Below, in pieces: positions 5,006 to 19,639 of a stretch of 64,000 nt of DNA (position 1 is its first letter; the number at the start of each line of letters is the position of its first letter). Location of the stretch: the NCBI RefSeq assembly GCF_016801775.1, contig NZ_CP069004.1, forward strand, positions 1,860,001-1,924,000. Direction: 5' to 3'. A program made the translations under genes and the position numbers. Source of the stretch: Sulfitobacter mediterraneus (GTDB lineage: Bacteria > Pseudomonadota > Alphaproteobacteria > Rhodobacterales > Rhodobacteraceae). A model generated the notes under the pieces. That model saw nothing but the letters and a program-made list of their open reading frames with translations, did not search any database and was not told where the DNA came from.

Positions 5006-5052
5006 TGCTCCAATAGATAAAAAACTGCCACGTCAGGAAGCCGTTGTGGCAT
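5006..5052 (-). promoter_or_regulatory. SAM/SAH riboswitch in the metK leader
   Basis: Read on the minus strand the leader contains CCACAACGGCTTCCTGACG, then GTGGCAG, then a T-rich linker and ATTGGAGCA just before the metK ATG. This matches the Rhodobacterales SAM/SAH riboswitch core as I remember it: a P1 stem (ATGCCAC with GTGGCAG) and a pseudoknot in which GGCTTCC pairs with the ribosome-binding TTGGAGC. Ligand binding should therefore hide the ribosome site and stop metK translation. The downstream gene fits. Confidence 0.92.
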
Positions 5053-5092
5053 ATCTGTTCGGCTTATCGGCGCAGGCCAGCAGGGTCAATCT

Positions 5093-12642: not shown

Positions 12643-13488
12643 ATGACGCAAGCCCTGCTGGAAAACGAAGCGCGATTGCGCATCTTGGTTTTCCTGCTGG
12701 TGTTGCTGATCATGGCGATTTGGGAGATCGCATCCCCCCGCCGCCGCCGCGATATCCCAAGGCTTCTTCGTTGGTCCAACAATCTGGCGATTGTGGTGCT
12801 GGATGCGGCCCTGGTACGGCTGCTGTTTCCCGTGGTGGCTGTTGGCCTTGCTGTCATTGCACAGCAAAACGGTTGGGGTTTGCTGAACCTGCTGGCTTTG
12901 CCGCAATGGCTGGCTGTAGTGGTTTCGCTCCTGCTCTTTGATCTGGCGATCTATCTGCAGCATGTGGTGTTTCACGCGGTGCCTGCCCTGTGGCGGCTGC
13001 ACCGGATGCATCACGCCGATCTGGAATTCGACGTGACCACGGGCCTGCGGTTTCATCCGGTTGAGATCATACTGTCAATGGCGGTCAAGATGACGCTGGT
13101 GTTGATCCTTGGGCCGCCTGCCATCGCGGTCTTGCTGTTTGAGGTGGTGCTGAACGCCAGCGCAATGTTCAATCACGCCAATGTCGACCTGCCAAACCGT
13201 CTGGACCGGATGCTGCGCCTTGTATTGGTCACGCCTGATATGCACCGGGTCCATCATTCGGATATTCCTGCGGAGACCCATAGCAATTTTGGCTTTAACC
13301 TGCCCTGGTGGGATCGGATTTTTGGCACCTATACGGCCCAACCCCGCAAAGGACATACAGGTATGACCATCGGATTGCCGCAGTTCCGGACCCGCCGTGA
13401 TCTGTGGCTTGACCGGATGTTGATGCAACCCCTGCGCGGCGATGAGGAGACGCCAAGGCGCGAGTCCTCCCCGCCCTCGGGCGGCTGA
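12643..13488 (+). CDS. Sterol desaturase / fatty acid hydroxylase family membrane protein
   Basis: A 281-residue di-iron membrane enzyme. Hydrophobic segments lie near 15-30, 45-75, 85-105 and 150-175. The eight-histidine pattern is present: HVVFH (about 107), HRMHH (about 119), FHPVE (about 138) and HRVHHSD (about 205). Family members hydroxylate or desaturate sterols, carotenoids or fatty acids; the substrate here is unknown. It follows the glycosyltransferase-like gene by 2 bases. Its TGA directly abuts the TGA of the opposite gene, so no terminator fits between them. Confidence 0.87.
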   Translation: MTQALLENEARLRILVFLLVLLIMAIWEIASPRRRRDIPRLLRWSNNLAIVVLDAALVRLLFPVVAVGLAVIAQQNGWGLLNLLALPQWLAVVVSLLLFDLAIYLQHVVFHAVPALWRLHRMHHADLEFDVTTGLRFHPVEIILSMAVKMTLVLILGPPAIAVLLFEVVLNASAMFNHANVDLPNRLDRMLRLVLVTPDMHRVHHSDIPAETHSNFGFNLPWWDRIFGTYTAQPRKGHTGMTIGLPQFRTRRDLWLDRMLMQPLRGDEETPRRESSPPSGG

Positions 13489-14283
13489 TCAACGGGGCCA
13501 GAGCACCGGAAACCAATCCTCGCGCAGCTTCTGGCCTTCGGTCATGTCATGGCCCGGATAGGGCGGTGAAGTTGGCCCGGGCCGCTGGGTATAGCGGGCG
13601 TCATCCCCCACCAACCGCAGTGAAAACGCCCGCCTCCGCGCCCCCGAGGTATTGCCCCGCGCACCGTGCAGAATGCCATAGTTGAACGCCACCGCATCGC
13701 CCGGCTCCATCGGCCATTCGCGGATATCCATGCCTTCGGCATCCGGATCCGGGACCGCCATATAAGGTGCAGGATCAAAGAACGCATCCCCCTTGGCCCA
13801 GCGCGTCGGCAGCACGGGTTTTTCCCACAAATGCGATCCCGCGACACAACGCAGCGAGGCCTCCTGCACCGGATCAAGCGGCGACCAGAAACTGACTGTC
13901 TGCTTGCCCTCAACAAAATAATATGGCCCATCCTGATGCCATGGGGTGGCCATCGAGGTGCCCGGCTCTTTGACCAACACGTGATCATGAAACAGCTGCG
14001 CGGATTGGCTTTGCATCAACTCGGAGGCGATCTCAGCAACGTCAGAATTGCGGATCACCTCTTCAAATTCGGGGATACGATCCCAGTTGCAATAATCGTC
14101 AAAGAACAGGCCTGTCTCGCCCGGCTTGTCGTTGTTTGACGCGTATGGGCCTGGCGCCTCCATATTGCGGGCCACACCGGCGCGAAGGGTTTCGACGTGG
14201 TCTGCAAACAGACCTTTGATCAACACCACACCGTCACGCTGGTAGCTGTCGATATGGTCTTGGGTGATCAGGGGATGCGGCAT
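13489..14283 (-). CDS. Phytanoyl-CoA dioxygenase family protein
   Basis: A 264-residue Fe(II)/2-oxoglutarate oxygenase. The iron triad is visible as HxD in PWHQDGPYYFVEG (about residues 124-126) and the distal His in NYGILHGA; the 2-oxoglutarate-binding Arg lies in ARRRAFSLRLVGD. The family hydroxylates acyl-CoAs and many small molecules, so the substrate is open. AAAGGA precedes the ATG. It is divergent from a LysR regulator, which probably controls it, and converges head-on with the desaturase-like gene. Confidence 0.85.
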   Translation of the reverse strand: MPHPLITQDHIDSYQRDGVVLIKGLFADHVETLRAGVARNMEAPGPYASNNDKPGETGLFFDDYCNWDRIPEFEEVIRNSDVAEIASELMQSQSAQLFHDHVLVKEPGTSMATPWHQDGPYYFVEGKQTVSFWSPLDPVQEASLRCVAGSHLWEKPVLPTRWAKGDAFFDPAPYMAVPDPDAEGMDIREWPMEPGDAVAFNYGILHGARGNTSGARRRAFSLRLVGDDARYTQRPGPTSPPYPGHDMTEGQKLREDWFPVLWPR

Positions 14284-14335
14284 TTGATTGTCCTTTGACT
14301 GTGTCTTGCCATGACATTCGCGCCAGCAGTCGTTA

Positions 14336-14358
14336 GTTTCAAATAATAAATGCGAAAC
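14336..14358. promoter_or_regulatory. Candidate LysR operator
   Basis: Dyad GTTTC-N13-GAAAC, 15 bases upstream of the LysR start and inside the 89-bp divergent promoter region shared with the dioxygenase gene. Position and symmetry fit an autoregulatory LysR site, though the spacing is not the standard T-N11-A. Confidence 0.4.
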
Positions 14359-14372
14359 ATTGGAATAGGCTG

Positions 14373-15281
14373 ATGCTATACTTAACGCTCCGGCACTACA
14401 GTTATGTGGTCGCGATTGCCGATCACGGCAGCCTGTCCGCTGCAGCCGCCCATCTGAATGTGTCGCAACCCTCGCTGTCCAATGCGCTGGATATCATCGA
14501 GGCCCGATTGCAGCGGCCCTTGTTCCTGCGCGGGCGCGGACAAGGCGTGACGATAACCCCGGATGGGCGAAACTTTGTCAAAGAGGCCAAATCCCTGCTT
14601 GGGTCGGCCCGAAGACTGGAACAATCAGGGCAATCGCCCCTGTCACAGCCCAGCGTTGCCTTGGGCTGTTTCCACGATCTGGCACCCTTTGTCTTGGCCC
14701 CGGCCCTCAGCCGTTTGCGCCAGTCCCTGCCGGAGATTGAGCTCCGCAGCCGCCTAGGCAATTTTGAAACGCTGGTGCGCGGTATGGCCGAAGGCGCGAT
14801 TGATCTGGCGATCACCTGGGACATTGGCCTGGATGCGCGGTTCAGCAAACGGGTTCTGGGGCACCTGCGTCCGCATGCCTTTATCGCCATGGATCACCCG
14901 CTGGCGCGCCGTGCAGACCTGAAACTGAGCGATCTGGCCGAAGAGGTGTTGATCCTGTCAGATGACGGACTTTCGGTGCAGCATATGGTCAAACTCTGTC
15001 AAAGCGCCGGATTTACCCCGCATTTGGCAGGCCACGCCGCCCCGGTTGAGGTGATGCGGTCCCTTGCCGCCCATGGGGAGGGCATCGGCATCAGCTATTC
15101 GGTGCCCCCATCACAGCACAGCTATGATGGCCGCGCCCTTTGTGCCCTGCCCGTCACGGACCCCGCCGCAGAGGAGCCTGTCGTATTGGCACAATTGGGC
15201 GATCCTGTGCCCGGCGGCACAGCGAATTTGATTGGAGAGATTTTGGAGGACGCAGATTTATTCCGCTTTGGCGGCGCTTAA
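14373..15281 (+). CDS. LysR-family transcriptional regulator
   Basis: A 302-residue regulator with the LysR winged HTH at residues 5-65 (HGSLSAAAAHLNVSQPSLSNALDIIE) and a substrate-binding domain from about 90 to 295. It is transcribed away from the dioxygenase gene, the usual arrangement for a LysR protein and its target. The effector cannot be inferred. Its TAA overlaps the TAA of irr on the other strand (TTAA at 15278-15281). Confidence 0.92.
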   Translation: MLYLTLRHYSYVVAIADHGSLSAAAAHLNVSQPSLSNALDIIEARLQRPLFLRGRGQGVTITPDGRNFVKEAKSLLGSARRLEQSGQSPLSQPSVALGCFHDLAPFVLAPALSRLRQSLPEIELRSRLGNFETLVRGMAEGAIDLAITWDIGLDARFSKRVLGHLRPHAFIAMDHPLARRADLKLSDLAEEVLILSDDGLSVQHMVKLCQSAGFTPHLAGHAAPVEVMRSLAAHGEGIGISYSVPPSQHSYDGRALCALPVTDPAAEEPVVLAQLGDPVPGGTANLIGEILEDADLFRFGGA

Positions 15282-15700
15282 TTCGCTTTGCGTCGCAGAC
15301 GGATCACCACATCCACACTGGCAATCTCGGCCCCGTCAGGCGCGTCTGGCACCTGCGAAATCACCAACTGATCGGCCGGTGCATCGGTCAGCCGCGCATC
15401 ATCTTCCCAATAGAAATGCGGGTGATCATGGGTGTTGGTGTCAAAATAGCTTTTGGAGCCGTCAACAGTAACCTCTTGCAGCAAACCTGCATCGCAAAAA
15501 GCACGTAAGGTGTTGTAAACAGTTGCCAATGACACGGCATCGCCCTGCCCTTTGGCGGCTTCAAACAGGCTTTCGGCGGTGACATGGCGGTGCTGGCCAT
15601 CACCCACCAGAAGGCTGGCCAATGTGACCCGCTGCCGTGTGGGGCGCACCCCGGCCTGTTCCAGCCATCGCGTGCCGTTCTGTTGATGCATCTGTGTCAT
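15278..15700 (-). CDS. irr: Fur-family iron response regulator, Irr type
   Basis: A 140-residue Fur-superfamily protein: winged helix with GVRPTRQRVTLASLL and SLATVYNTLRAF, then the dimerisation domain with HDHPHFYWED. It lacks the CxxC zinc motifs of Fur and Zur, and the HxH cluster is typical of Irr, the haem-responsive regulator of alphaproteobacteria. Irr represses haem and iron-storage genes under low iron and is degraded or inactivated by haem. It is divergent from fabA with 187 bp between; I saw no clear ICE-type palindrome there. Confidence 0.85.
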   Translation of the reverse strand: MTQMHQQNGTRWLEQAGVRPTRQRVTLASLLVGDGQHRHVTAESLFEAAKGQGDAVSLATVYNTLRAFCDAGLLQEVTVDGSKSYFDTNTHDHPHFYWEDDARLTDAPADQLVISQVPDAPDGAEIASVDVVIRLRRKAN

Positions 15701-15887
15701 GATGGCTCCGTTGCGCGTCGTCCCTGCCTACCATATAGGGCGCGGCGACCCTTGTTTTCAATGACTATTCGCCCTCTATGCACAACAGTGCTCATGCCGC
15801 CGCCCGTGGGCTTTGACTTGCGGCTTGTGCAATCGGGGTGCTAGATCAGGTCAACTTGGAACCACGTGACGCAGGAGAGCCGACCCA

Positions 15888-16397
15888 ATGGCCGAATACC
15901 CCACCAGCTTTGACAAAGAAGATCTGTTGAAATGCGCCGAAGGAAAGCTGTTTGGCCCCGGCAACGCCCAATTGCCAGCGCCGCCCATGTTGATGATGGA
16001 CCGGATCACCGATGTCTCGGCCGATGGCGGCGCCCATGGCAAGGGTCATATCACCGCCGAATTCGATATCACGCCCGATCTGTGGTTCTTTGACTGCCAC
16101 TTTCCCGGTAACCCGATCATGCCCGGCTGTCTGGGCCTGGATGGCCTGTGGCAGCTGACCGGTTTCAACCTTGGCTGGCGCGGCTGGCAGGGGCGCGGCT
16201 ATGCCCTTGGCGTGGGTGAGGTGAAGCTGACCGGCATGGTGCGCCCCGACCGCAAGATGCTGACCTACAAGATTGATTTCACCAAGGCGATCCAGACCCG
16301 CCGCCTGACCATGGGTGTCGCCGATGGCATCGTCGAGGCGGACGGCGAGGTAATCTATCAGGTCACCGGAATGAAAGTTGCGCTGAGCGAGAGCTGA
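15888..16397 (+). CDS. fabA: 3-hydroxydecanoyl-ACP dehydratase/isomerase
   Basis: Hot-dog-fold enzyme that dehydrates 3-hydroxydecanoyl-ACP and isomerises the double bond, the branch point for unsaturated fatty acids. The 169-residue protein has the full signature with catalytic His71 ([11 protein letters not shown]) and Asp85 (LGLDGLWQ). AGGAGAG precedes the ATG. It is the first gene of the fabA-fabB-fabI unit, but a foreign-looking gene follows one base after its stop. Confidence 0.97.
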
Positions 16398-16398
16398 A

Positions 16399-17196
16399 AT
16401 GAATAGGCCGAAGGAAGACGTTTTCTTCGATTCCGAGTTCCGAGAGCGTTATCTTGAAGAACTCGGAATAAGCTCAACTGACAAAATTGCAGTCAAAGAA
16501 GCCTACGAAACGGCGCATAGAATTCGCGAGTTTGAAATTGAATTATACTGGAAGCGAACAGCTTACCTTTGGGCGATGCAAGCGGCCTTAATAGGCATAG
16601 CTATGTTTCTTTGGACGGCAGGGGATACCACCATCTCTTTGACTTCTTCGAAAAGCTGGTCCGAGCCCAAAATAATAATCACAACAAATCCTAGCAATAA
16701 CTCTCTATGGGCAATCACCGTATTGTCCAGTTTGTCCTTAACGATTGCCTGGCTCTGGGCCGCGGTGATTAGTGGCGCGAAATTTTGGCAAAACAATTGG
16801 GAAAGGCATGTTGATATTCTCGGCCATGCACTGGGCCAGAACCTATATCAAGTCTACCCTTTGCAAGCCCCCGAAACGATACCACCGTTCAGCGTTACCA
16901 AGGTCAATCGATACATCGTTGCCGCGTTTATCTGTTTCTGGAATGTCAATCTGTTATGGTCTCTTTGGGAACTCGCGTCTGTTTATTCCGGCATTTCTCC
17001 TCCGAAACTGACCATAGTTTGCGCGGTTTTCGTTTCATACGTTGTCGGATGTATTTTCTTCCTCAATCAGTTTGTTAATAGCATATTTTATTCTGGATTG
17101 CGAATGTCGCGATATGGCGCTCCGGTCGAGGGCTTACCAAAAGGACCTGGAAAACCAGAACTACACCAGCGAAGCCGCCTTCCGAGGCAGGACTGA
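16399..17196 (+). CDS. AT-rich four-helix membrane protein inserted between fabA and fabB
   Basis: A 265-residue protein starting one base after the fabA stop. An N-terminal cytoplasmic helix (about 25-50, RIREFEIELYWKRTAYLWAM) leads into hydrophobic segments near 55-75, 103-128, 170-192 and 200-222. The motif SGAKFWQNNWERHVDIL resembles a broad family of small bacterial membrane proteins, some labelled RipA-like; this is from memory and unverified. The gene is far richer in A+T than its neighbours and uses ATA, TTA and AAT codons freely, a sign of recent transfer. The usual fab operon has no such gene. Function unknown. Confidence 0.8.
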   Translation: MNRPKEDVFFDSEFRERYLEELGISSTDKIAVKEAYETAHRIREFEIELYWKRTAYLWAMQAALIGIAMFLWTAGDTTISLTSSKSWSEPKIIITTNPSNNSLWAITVLSSLSLTIAWLWAAVISGAKFWQNNWERHVDILGHALGQNLYQVYPLQAPETIPPFSVTKVNRYIVAAFICFWNVNLLWSLWELASVYSGISPPKLTIVCAVFVSYVVGCIFFLNQFVNSIFYSGLRMSRYGAPVEGLPKGPGKPELHQRSRLPRQD

Positions 17197-17238
17197 CAGG
17201 ATCCAGATCACTGGCGCGACCGAAGCTCTCCAAGTGAG

Positions 17239-17268
17239 AGGCTGACCAGCGTACTGCGGGTGCAGGGG
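17239..17268 (+). repeat. Imperfect direct repeat, left copy
   Basis: Begins AGGCTGACCAGCGTACTGCG and matches 17461-17490 at 23 of 30 bases; five of the seven differences are transitions. It lies just after the AT-rich gene. Confidence 0.55.
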
Positions 17269-17460
17269 TATTTGGAAACCTCGCACCTATCCTCAATTGC
17301 GTCGATGTCCCCAAGGGGATCCCCCCTGATTATGTGAGGGATTGAAACCAAAGCCCCAGCGGGCAGCAGGATGGTCTAGGTTGAAACCAGACACACCAGC
17401 CAATCCAGGGGCGGCCCCCGGCCGAGGTGGGGGCAAAGCCCCCGCCTGGGGGGCGGGCGG

Positions 17461-17490
17461 AGGCTGACCGGTGTGCTGCGGGCGCGGCCG
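17461..17490 (+). repeat. Imperfect direct repeat, right copy
   Basis: Begins AGGCTGACCGGTGTGCTGCG, 222 bp downstream of the left copy. It lies about 110 bp before fabB. Confidence 0.55.
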
Positions 17491-17603
17491 TTCTTTGAAA
17501 TCCAGCCAACCCACCCCAGGCGGTCGGCGCAGAGCGCCCCTAACCGCTTGCGCCCCCGCACCCTGCTGTCATACACAGAACCAACCAATCAAAGGAGTGC
17601 GGT

Positions 17604-18833
17604 ATGCGCCGTGTTGTCGTTACAGGTCTGGGCATTGTCTCATCTATCGGAAACAACGCAGAAGAGGTGATCGCCTCTTTGAAAGCGGGGAAATCGGGGA
17701 TCGAAGCCAGCCCCGAAATGGCCGAACACGGGTTCCGCAGCCAGATCGCCGGCACGATCAAGCTGGATGTTTCCGAACATGTGGACAAGCGCACATTGCG
17801 GTTCATGGGGCCGGGTGCCGCCTATGCCTATATCGCAATGGGGCAAGCGATTGCCGACGCGGGCCTTGACGAAAGCATCATCAGCAACCCGCGCACCGGT
17901 CTGATCGCTGGCTCCGGCGGGCCGTCCACCTCGGCCATGAAGATCGCCCATGACACCGTCGACAAAACCGGCGCGACCAAGCGGATCGGGCCATTTGCCG
18001 TGCCAAAATGCATGTCCTCCACGATCAGCGCCAACCTCTCCACGGCCTATAAGATCAAAGGCATCAATTATTCCATCACCTCGGCCTGCTCGACCTCGCT
18101 ACATTGCATGGGCTCGGCGGCAGAGCAGATCATGCTGGGCAAACAGGACGTGATGTTTGCAGGCGGCGGCGAAGAGCTGGATTGGACGCTGTCATGCCTC
18201 TTTGACGCCATGGGCGCGATGAGCAGCAAATACAACGACACGCCGGACAAAGCCTCCCGTGCCTTTGACGCCAACCGCGATGGCTTTGTCATCACTGGCG
18301 GCGGCGGCATCGTGGTGCTGGAAGATCTGGATCACGCATTGGCCCGCGGTGCAAAAATCTATGCCGAAGTGACCGGTTTTGCGGCCACCTCGGACGGCCA
18401 TGACATGGTTGCCCCCTCTGGCGAGGGCGGACAGCGGGCGATGGAACTGGCGCTGGCCACCCTGCCCGAAGGCCGCAAGGTCAGTTATATCAACGCCCAT
18501 GGCACCTCGACCCCGGTCGGCGATGTCGGCGAGATCGAAGCCGTGCGCCGCGTTTTTGGGGCCGGCAGCACGCCGCCCGTCAGCTCGACCAAATCCCTCA
18601 CCGGCCATGGTCAGGGCGCAGCAGGCGCGATGGAGGCAATCTTTTGCTTGCTGATGCTGGAGAATGATTTCATCACACCCTCCATCAACGTCGAAACCCT
18701 CGATCCGGCGCTCAAGCCTGAAGAGATTGCAACAGATCTGGTTGAAAATGCCGGTTTGGATTCTGTCATGACCAATTCCTTTGGCTTTGGTGGCACCAAC
18801 GGGTCTATGATCCTGTCCAAGTATCAGGGGTAA
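17604..18833 (+). CDS. fabB: 3-oxoacyl-ACP synthase I
   Basis: Condensing enzyme that elongates unsaturated acyl-ACP made by FabA. The 409-residue protein shows Cys162 in [10 protein letters not shown], the first catalytic His in NAHGTSTP, Lys and the second His in [10 protein letters not shown], and a C-terminal [18 protein letters not shown] precedes the ATG. fabI follows 8 bases later. The distance of 1.2 kb from fabA, filled by the AT-rich gene and non-coding DNA, is abnormal and raises the question of how fabB is now transcribed. Confidence 0.97.
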
Positions 18834-18841
18834 GGAACAAA

Positions 18842-19633
18842 ATGTCGGATTTGCTTAAAGGGAAACGCGGCCTGATCATGGGTGTCGCGAACGAACGGTC
18901 CATTGCATGGGGCATTGCCAAGGCGATGGCCGGCGCCGGAGCCGAACTGGCCTTTACCTATCAGGGGGAGGCCTTTGGCTCGCGTTTGCGCCCCTTGGCG
19001 GAATCGGTTGGATCGGACTTCATGGTCGATGTGGATGTGACCGATGATGCCTCGCTCGACACCGCTTTTGATCAGCTGGCCGCACGCTGGCCGACGATTG
19101 ACTTCGTGGTCCATGCGATTGCGTTTTCCGACAAATCCGAACTGACCGGACGGTTCCTGAACACCAGCCGGGAGAACTTCAAGAACTCAATGGATATCTC
19201 CGCCTACAGCTTTATCGAAGTGGCCCGCCGCGCCCATCCGTTGATGGTGGAAAACGGCGGCACCTTGTTGACGCTGACCTATCAGGGGTCAAACCGCGTT
19301 GTGCCCAATTACAACGTCATGGGTGTGGCCAAGGCGGCACTGGAAAGCGCGACGCGCTATCTGGCCAATGATCTGGGTCCCGAAGGCATCCGCGTGAATG
19401 CCATTTCGCCCGGCCCCATGAAAACGCTGGCGGGTGCGGCCATTGGCGGGGCACGAAAAACCTACAAGCACACCGACCAGAACGCGCCTCTGCGTTCCAA
19501 CGCGACGCTTGAGGCGGTGGGCGGCACTGCCGTTTATCTGGCCTCGGACGCGGGTGCCTGCACCACGGGCGAGATTGTGCGCGTCGATGGCGGTTTTCAC
19601 GTTCTGGGCATGCCGCAACAGGACAACCTTTAA
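18842..19633 (+). CDS. fabI: Enoyl-ACP reductase (NADH)
   Basis: Short-chain dehydrogenase that completes each fatty-acid elongation round. The 263-residue protein has the FabI nucleotide motif GVANERSIAWGIA (14-26), Tyr147, Tyr157 and Lys164 of the Y-x6-Y-x6-K active site, and SPGPMKTLAGA after it. AAGGAAC precedes the ATG, 8 bases after fabB. Triclosan-type inhibitors bind this family. Its stop lies 6 bases from that of the converging small membrane gene. Confidence 0.96.
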   Translation: MSDLLKGKRGLIMGVANERSIAWGIAKAMAGAGAELAFTYQGEAFGSRLRPLAESVGSDFMVDVDVTDDASLDTAFDQLAARWPTIDFVVHAIAFSDKSELTGRFLNTSRENFKNSMDISAYSFIEVARRAHPLMVENGGTLLTLTYQGSNRVVPNYNVMGVAKAALESATRYLANDLGPEGIRVNAISPGPMKTLAGAAIGGARKTYKHTDQNAPLRSNATLEAVGGTAVYLASDAGACTTGEIVRVDGGFHVLGMPQQDNL

Positions 19634-19639
19634 AGAAGG

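Follow-up and report, generated by a model that had tools for sequence, protein, structure and literature searches.

A foreign-looking 8xMP (RipA-like) membrane protein gene between fabA and fabB of Sulfitobacter mediterraneus, probably mobile phage-related cargo

Introduction

In Sulfitobacter mediterraneus, an AT-rich gene for a membrane protein lies between fabA and fabB, whose products must be balanced for unsaturated lipid synthesis. Where did this gene come from, and does it belong to fatty-acid metabolism at all? We addressed these questions in a 64,000-nucleotide stretch of contig NZ_CP069004.1 (positions 1,860,001 to 1,924,000), hereafter the window. An initial annotation, made from the letters alone, had described a foreign-looking gene that breaks the fabA-fabB operon and could change the ratio of the two enzymes. 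The gene encodes an 8xMP (RipA-like) protein, is foreign in composition and patchy in distribution, occupies a site that is empty in a close relative, and leaves the fabB leader in place. It is probably mobile phage-related cargo and not a part of fatty-acid metabolism. The full explanation that we put first, with about even confidence, is that a single-gene 8xMP cargo was acquired horizontally into the fabA-fabB gap, where it helps its carrier against phages and stands outside fatty-acid synthesis.

Results

An 8xMP gene directly behind fabA

The + strand order is fabA, an open reading frame of 265 codons, 407 bp without a recognised gene, fabB and fabI (Table 1). Pfam and NCBIfam both confirm FabA and FabB, and the gene at 18842-19633 is presumably fabI, judging from its sequence. 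The fabA stop codon is the TGA at 16395-16397. As first described, a 798-bp AT-rich gene follows after a single base; its length is not a product of chance, as 265 codons on the + strand were reached in none of 2000 single-base shuffles of the insert. The 407 bp of non-coding DNA said to precede fabB (17197-17603) has that length, but only 340 of these bases belong to the insert, the rest being the native fabB leader, which matches the genome of a close relative (G016) from 17537. A known RNA element at the insert was considered and rejected, since neither Rfam at gathering thresholds nor ARAGORN listed one there. Elsewhere in the window, Rfam reports a SAM/SAH riboswitch at 5006-5055 on the - strand (RF01727, 61 bits against a gathering threshold of 40).

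Table 1 Features of the fabA-fabB locus (window coordinates)
Feature	Position	Strand	Basis
fabA, intact, 169 aa	15888..16397	+	NCBIfam FabA equivalogs above cut-off; protein 99% identical to G016 FabA
Insert, 1,139 bp, relative to G016 (59 bp there)	16398..17536	+	blastn and alignment with G016
8xMP (RipA-like) membrane protein gene, 265 aa	16399..17196	+	PF24838 match, AlphaFold2 model, hydropathy
Non-coding tail of the insert	17197..17536	+	Missing from G016
Possible degenerate second repeat copy	17238..17278	+	Direct repeat D1, 76% over 41 nt
GC-rich palindromic dispersed repeat, REP-like	17409..17484	+	Copies in other genomes of the genus
Native fabB leader with promoter-like pair and ribosome-binding site	17537..17603	+	G016 match; similar pair in other leaders
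fabB, 409 aa	17604..18833	+	NCBIfam beta-ketoacyl-ACP synthase I above cut-off; ATG at 17604
fabI (presumed)	18842..19633	+	Read from its sequence

The protein scores 77.3 bits with the Pfam profile PF24838 (8xMP; cut-off 30), the match covering positions 1-135 of 136, and 36 database proteins, itself included, match at E <= 0.001. Hydropathy predicts four membrane spans (residues about 57-75, 106-124, 172-190 and 204-222). In the AlphaFold2 monomer model (21-row alignment; mean pLDDT 80.5, pTM 0.74), a beta-hairpin joins two long helices (29-73 and 100-145), and two more helices follow. This bears out the suggestion that the protein carries a motif of a widespread but poorly understood membrane family; of the searches that had been proposed, those of profiles gave the family, whereas fold searches returned nothing informative. 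Residues invariant in the 21 aligned sequences include R43, E46, Y50, W51, R53, G126, K128, W130, E135 and D139, and most of the family-invariant positions are grouped where helices 1 and 2 end and in the loop that comes next, which places them on what are presumably cytoplasmic extensions of these two helices and on the loop after helix 2. With the family that RefSeq calls 'RipA family octameric membrane protein', a named member of which itself matches PF24838, the window protein shares the four-helix model and the conserved FEIELYWKR and GAKFWQNNWERHVD stretches. Its gene is set apart by being a rare AT-rich insert of an alphaproteobacterium, placed behind fabA and with no partner gene.

Many close relatives start at a methionine aligned with F9 (MFS..., MFD...). 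The window protein and P0002, which is 87% identical, share eight extra N-terminal residues, MNRPKEDV, so the ATG at 16399 looks gained or kept at the junction. An ATG one base after the fabA stop would suit translational coupling, and the gene is indeed placed for possible co-transcription with fabA. It may benefit there from a strong constitutive promoter, as the initial annotation proposed. P0002 may have the same arrangement behind fabA.

Foreign composition, patchy distribution and an empty site

The gene is the lowest of 51 window open reading frames in both GC (0.465, against a mean of 0.598, sd 0.022, for the 50 others) and GC3 (0.494 against 0.685, sd 0.042), and its codon adaptiveness to the window genes is 0.499, the lowest value among the 50 others being 0.579; the comparison set was formed of the longest non-overlapping frames of at least 150 codons. 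Composition and patchiness (see below) thus agree in supporting a foreign-looking gene. The AT-richness is a trait of the family as well. In 66 of 71 genome loci the GC of the stretch matched to 8xMP is below that of the flanks, and in 54 of the 71 its GC3 is below that of the neighbours (the 71 come from the best 80 loci, those with too few neighbours being dropped). That low GC merely follows from encoding a hydrophobic protein is rejected by these GC3 values, in the window and across the family. The tail of the insert is GC-rich (0.647 over 17197-17530), and the AT-richness is therefore confined to the gene and is not a property of the whole insert.

We did not find the same gene at the same place, with normal composition, across most Rhodobacterales. 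A protein search of 62 genomes of the genus gave an 8xMP match in two, the window's own genome and G005, whose gene is 35% identical and lies on a different contig from fabA; 61 of the 62 gave a FabA match, one of them weak. An alignment search of 394 genomes of the family (about one per genus) found a match in six, of which one covers 36 positions and one contains stops, and four of 390 genomes sampled from the order had one; the three samples overlap. The identical protein is found on eight contigs, the window's own included.

Comparison of the fabA-fabB interval in close relatives, as had been suggested, revealed an empty site. G016, which has the most similar FabA among the genomes of the genus (99%), matches the window at about 90-91% over 13485-16397 and 17537-19634, with 59 bp of G016 DNA between the two matches. 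As they end at 16397 and resume at 17537, the insert is 16398-17536, so that its left boundary falls at the stop codon of fabA. G016 also lacks, at the same place, a gene for a 281-aa protein at 12643-13488 (its matches stop at 12643 and resume at 13485), presumably a fatty-acid hydroxylase/sterol desaturase.

The non-coding tail carries a REP-like repeat

The palindromic repeat in the tail (Table 1) recurs in at least 14 places in 12 of 61 other genomes of the genus (E <= 1e-5, with no more than 11 candidates scored per genome). Its core inverted repeat is visible in the 11 copies read in register, and from our reading these have the look of intergenic copies. The window's own genome holds one copy at up to two mismatches of the core pattern, plus a weak 27-bp match elsewhere (E 0.015), and 17197-17603 as a whole has one match there at E <= 0.001, which is itself. 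The single copy fits a tail that arrived together with the gene, a separate hop of the repeat being the alternative. Within the tail, 17238-17278 resembles the 3' part of the repeat at 17460-17500 (D1) and could be a degenerate partial copy or a chance match. The predicted single-strand DNA fold of the repeat region is no more stable than that of shuffles (z 0.39). A REP-associated transposase (RAYT) gene lies 46 bp from a distant 8xMP gene (L123; NF047646), a single case to which we attach no weight. The tail also contains the stretch GTGAGGGATTGAAACC at 17334-17349, which resembles the end of some CRISPR repeats; a repeat search of 15700-19000 lists no array there.

fabB keeps its own leader in a gap that tolerates inserts

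The 67 bases before fabB (17537-17603) are nearly unchanged in G016. They hold a promoter-like pair, TTGCGC at 17548-17553 and CATACA at 17570-17575, with a 16-nt spacer. A similar pair with the same spacing occurs in six of 14 aligned leaders (the window's own, L004, and L005, L006, L017, L019 and L031); all six have, upstream of fabB, a TTGC(G/A)C hexamer that a 16-nt spacer parts from a second, AT-richer hexamer, at fabA-fabB distances from 103 to 1,206 bp.

We examined 30 fabA loci, those with the most similar FabA among the 61 genomes of the genus with a FabA match, the window's own included. fabB lies within 1.5 kb downstream of fabA in 14 of them and was not seen in that interval in the other 16. 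Twelve of the 14 gaps measure 103-230 bp. The two others are the window's own, of 1,206 bp, and that of G051 (L125), of 1,121 bp, which holds a different gene, apparently one for a class III cyclase with an FHA-like end. The variable gaps, the gene in G051 and the 16 loci without a close fabB indicate that the gap tolerates inserts and that FabA-FabB adjacency is no fixed trait of the genus.

It had been suggested that the insert could change the FabA:FabB ratio; it might do so, with a physiological effect, by separating fabB from the fabA promoter. In keeping with this, the two genes are some 1.1 kb further apart, with terminator-like hairpins (17472-17488) in the added DNA, and TTGCGC-N16-CATACA is only a fair sigma-70 match, goes unreported by a consensus scanner and has no counterpart in eight of the 14 aligned leaders. 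However, this pair sits directly upstream of fabB and is common to six loci of very different gap length, more than half of the 30 loci have no close fabB, and the terminator count of the region, although above that of shuffles (5 against 1.8, sd 1.4), is one of consensus matches only. Together with the other gene in the G051 gap, these observations do not support an imbalance of FabA and FabB. Some effect on the ratio is conceivable but is a weak regulatory worry, and we regard one with a physiological effect as very improbable.

The same tolerance bears on whether the gene does anything here. It is possible that a functional member of its family was recently and neutrally inserted into this gap as an inert passenger of no benefit to this host, as the variability of the gap in the genus and the intact fabB leader would allow. 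However, the reading frame is intact, P0002 has kept the same form, extension included, and the identical protein recurs on several contigs, so we consider an inert passenger unlikely, though it keeps some weight.

Relatives of the gene live on phages, plasmids and islands

A genome scan found 157 contig stretches that encode 8xMP relatives, of which the best 80 were used in the locus analyses; viral contigs added 44 loci, and four of 72,556 plasmids carry an 8xMP gene. These are counts of loci and not of events, because two collections hold the same place under two handles each (L038/L127 and L034/L126), and near-duplicates occur among the other viral loci. Genes in related loci were called simply as longest open reading frames, which works poorly in GC-rich contigs, and in L034, L043, L105 and L126 no 8xMP frame was called automatically.

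The clearest pattern was found in P2-like prophages. Of 128 loci, 10 have both of the P2 genes S and V, and every one of these carries its 8xMP gene in the interval between the two, on the opposite strand (gene identities rest on Pfam in L145 and on RefSeq annotation in two E. coli genomes). The 8xMP gene of L145 has relatives in seven of 5,426 E. coli genomes. The S-V site corresponds to the position of P2 orf30, described as one of three P2 regions in which acquired genes are common (PMC3091744); the window gene differs in lying in a core operon and not in a prophage.

Other relatives were found in a range of surroundings. On a Phaeobacter contig, a 48%-identical relative lies between a large-terminase gene (GpA domains above cut-off) and a small-terminase-like gene, the latter read from a sole Pfam match, DUF1441, below its cut-off. 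In an alphaproteobacterial metagenome-assembled genome (L035), a 50%-identical relative is near ABC-3C and AAA genes. The 8xMP gene of a Sphingobium plasmid (L188, 5920-6717) is embedded in a type I restriction-modification operon, where it overlaps each of its two neighbours by 4 bp, and adjoins a GIY-YIG gene that matches the PADLOC candidate PDC-S14. In E. coli MB06233 an integrase is found two genes from the 8xMP gene, beside mutS/pphB, and in E. coli G3/10 a gene for the small subunit of a terminase is found at that distance. Lone 8xMP genes were also seen in alphaproteobacteria beside lepA (L123), rpoD (L122) and argD (L036), the Pfam test having covered rpoD only.

In three records (L186, L189 and L191), the 8xMP gene has a convergent companion at a distance of about 270 bp (DUF4238 in L186 and L191), and over 2.4 kb an E. 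coli P2-like prophage is 87% identical to plasmids of Klebsiella and Pantoea. DUF4238-like genes occur together with 8xMP in the E. coli records L186 and L190 and in the plasmid records L189 and L191; the other 8xMP loci searched gave none. A general partner gene was rejected: among the 94 nearest open reading frames of 47 loci, the commonest Pfam family matches three.

Discussion

The window protein is probably a phage-exclusion or defence membrane protein, by analogy with its relatives, because these are found at prophage cargo sites and in islands of restriction or defence genes. The prophage-encoded anti-phage genes of P2 hotspots are likewise small genes in such cargo positions and islands. 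Defence genes are reported at two P2 loci (PMC9519451) and at one P2 hotspot (PMC9122126); in the parts of these reports that bear on position, the loci are apparently sites other than S-V, where the 8xMP relatives sit.

Several observations stand against this. The window protein matched no PADLOC family at E <= 5, nor did the 8xMP protein of the restriction operon at E <= 0.001, and we know of no 8xMP gene among tested defence genes. The local context is a housekeeping operon and not an island. The neighbourhoods of relatives were scanned in 47 of the best 80 loci (GC <= 0.57, at least 14 kb). In favour of a defence role, the 94 nearest frames include matches to TIR, GajA, methylase, type I specificity and integrase families, one or two each. 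They matched 342 PADLOC families, against 274 for 91 frames about 6.5 kb away, a near/far contrast and not a genome-wide one, in which 'nearest' means the nearest called frame of 100-700 aa and some 'far' frames lie much closer than 6.5 kb. The PADLOC and Pfam tallies count families and not proteins hit; many of the PADLOC families are overlapping models of one protein, and families hitting several members were more numerous in the far set. As both sets have PADLOC matches, the surroundings are at most rich in defence and phage genes over several kilobases, and nothing pairs generally with 8xMP.

The likely namesake of the RefSeq family, judging from the name, is RipA of Francisella (ripA, FTT0181c/FTL1914). 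It is described as a cytoplasmic membrane protein with two functional cytoplasmic domains (PMC4322802). The same report presents it as a conserved chromosomal protein linked to LpxA, which argues against a cargo gene for defence. RipA is reportedly conserved in Francisella and needed for growth in host cells, in contrast to the patchiness of the window gene in its genus.

A role in lipid synthesis such as that reported for RipA is a serious rival. By analogy, the window protein would have as its binding partner an enzyme with 3-hydroxyacyl-ACP as substrate and would adjust how much goes into lipid A, into unsaturated and into saturated lipid; its co-expression with FabA would be functional. 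FabA draws on the 3-hydroxyacyl-ACP pool. So does LpxA, to which RipA is reportedly linked: the two co-immunoprecipitate, LpxA is more abundant when RipA is present, and, in the authors' proposal, hydroxyacyl-ACP may be channelled into phospholipid instead when LpxA is less active (PMC4322802). According to a review, neither ripA mutation nor weak LpxA variants measurably changed membrane composition (PMC12444477).

In P0015, a protein from a metagenome, part of FabA is joined to an 8xMP that is 46% identical to the window protein, so that FabA and 8xMP may have met a second time in another lineage. However, P0015 is a single protein from a single contig of 1,631 bp, and its FabA is damaged, with 18 internal residues and the C-terminus missing. 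Further odd fusions of FabA turned up in the search that gave P0015, and among the best 120 of its 491 matches no other has 8xMP, which makes P0015 a lead and not proof. Moreover, no fabA, fabB or fabI was found by tblastn (E <= 1e-6) near 128 other 8xMP loci, in flanks of up to about 8-10 kb and often shorter. Eleven of the best 80 genome loci carry names of genera of Bacillota, a phylum not known to have lipid A; LpxA is therefore not the general partner of the family. Overall, we judge a RipA-like lipid regulator to be unlikely here.

If the gene is instead a cargo that helps against phages, as we prefer, it would have entered directly behind the fabA stop codon and upstream of the promoter-like leader of fabB. 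It would then be transcribed with fabA by read-through and translated by coupling at TGA-A-ATG. The membrane protein would act against phages as an exclusion or abortive-type effector, and its conserved residues, on the presumably cytoplasmic extensions of the first two helices and on the loop that follows, would form the sensing or partner-binding face.

From a biological perspective, the gene itself is one more 8xMP protein, and the weight lies in the pattern across its relatives. To our knowledge, one member of the family has been studied, an orphan pathogen factor. In the open-licence literature, which was the scope of our search, we found no paper proposing the 8xMP cargo pattern or a phage-exclusion role. 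A bolder and rather improbable reading is that 8xMP/RipA proteins make up a class so far unrecognised and widely mobile, one of membrane proteins that exclude phages and have envelope lipid or acyl-ACP enzymes as their targets, and that this one was captured into the fabA transcript because FabA's pathway is its target. If true, this would tie the orphan pathogen factor RipA to both phage defence and fatty-acid synthesis. Finally, the presence of relatives as cargo of phages, plasmids and islands across phyla gives the 8xMP family a testable role, that of phage exclusion.
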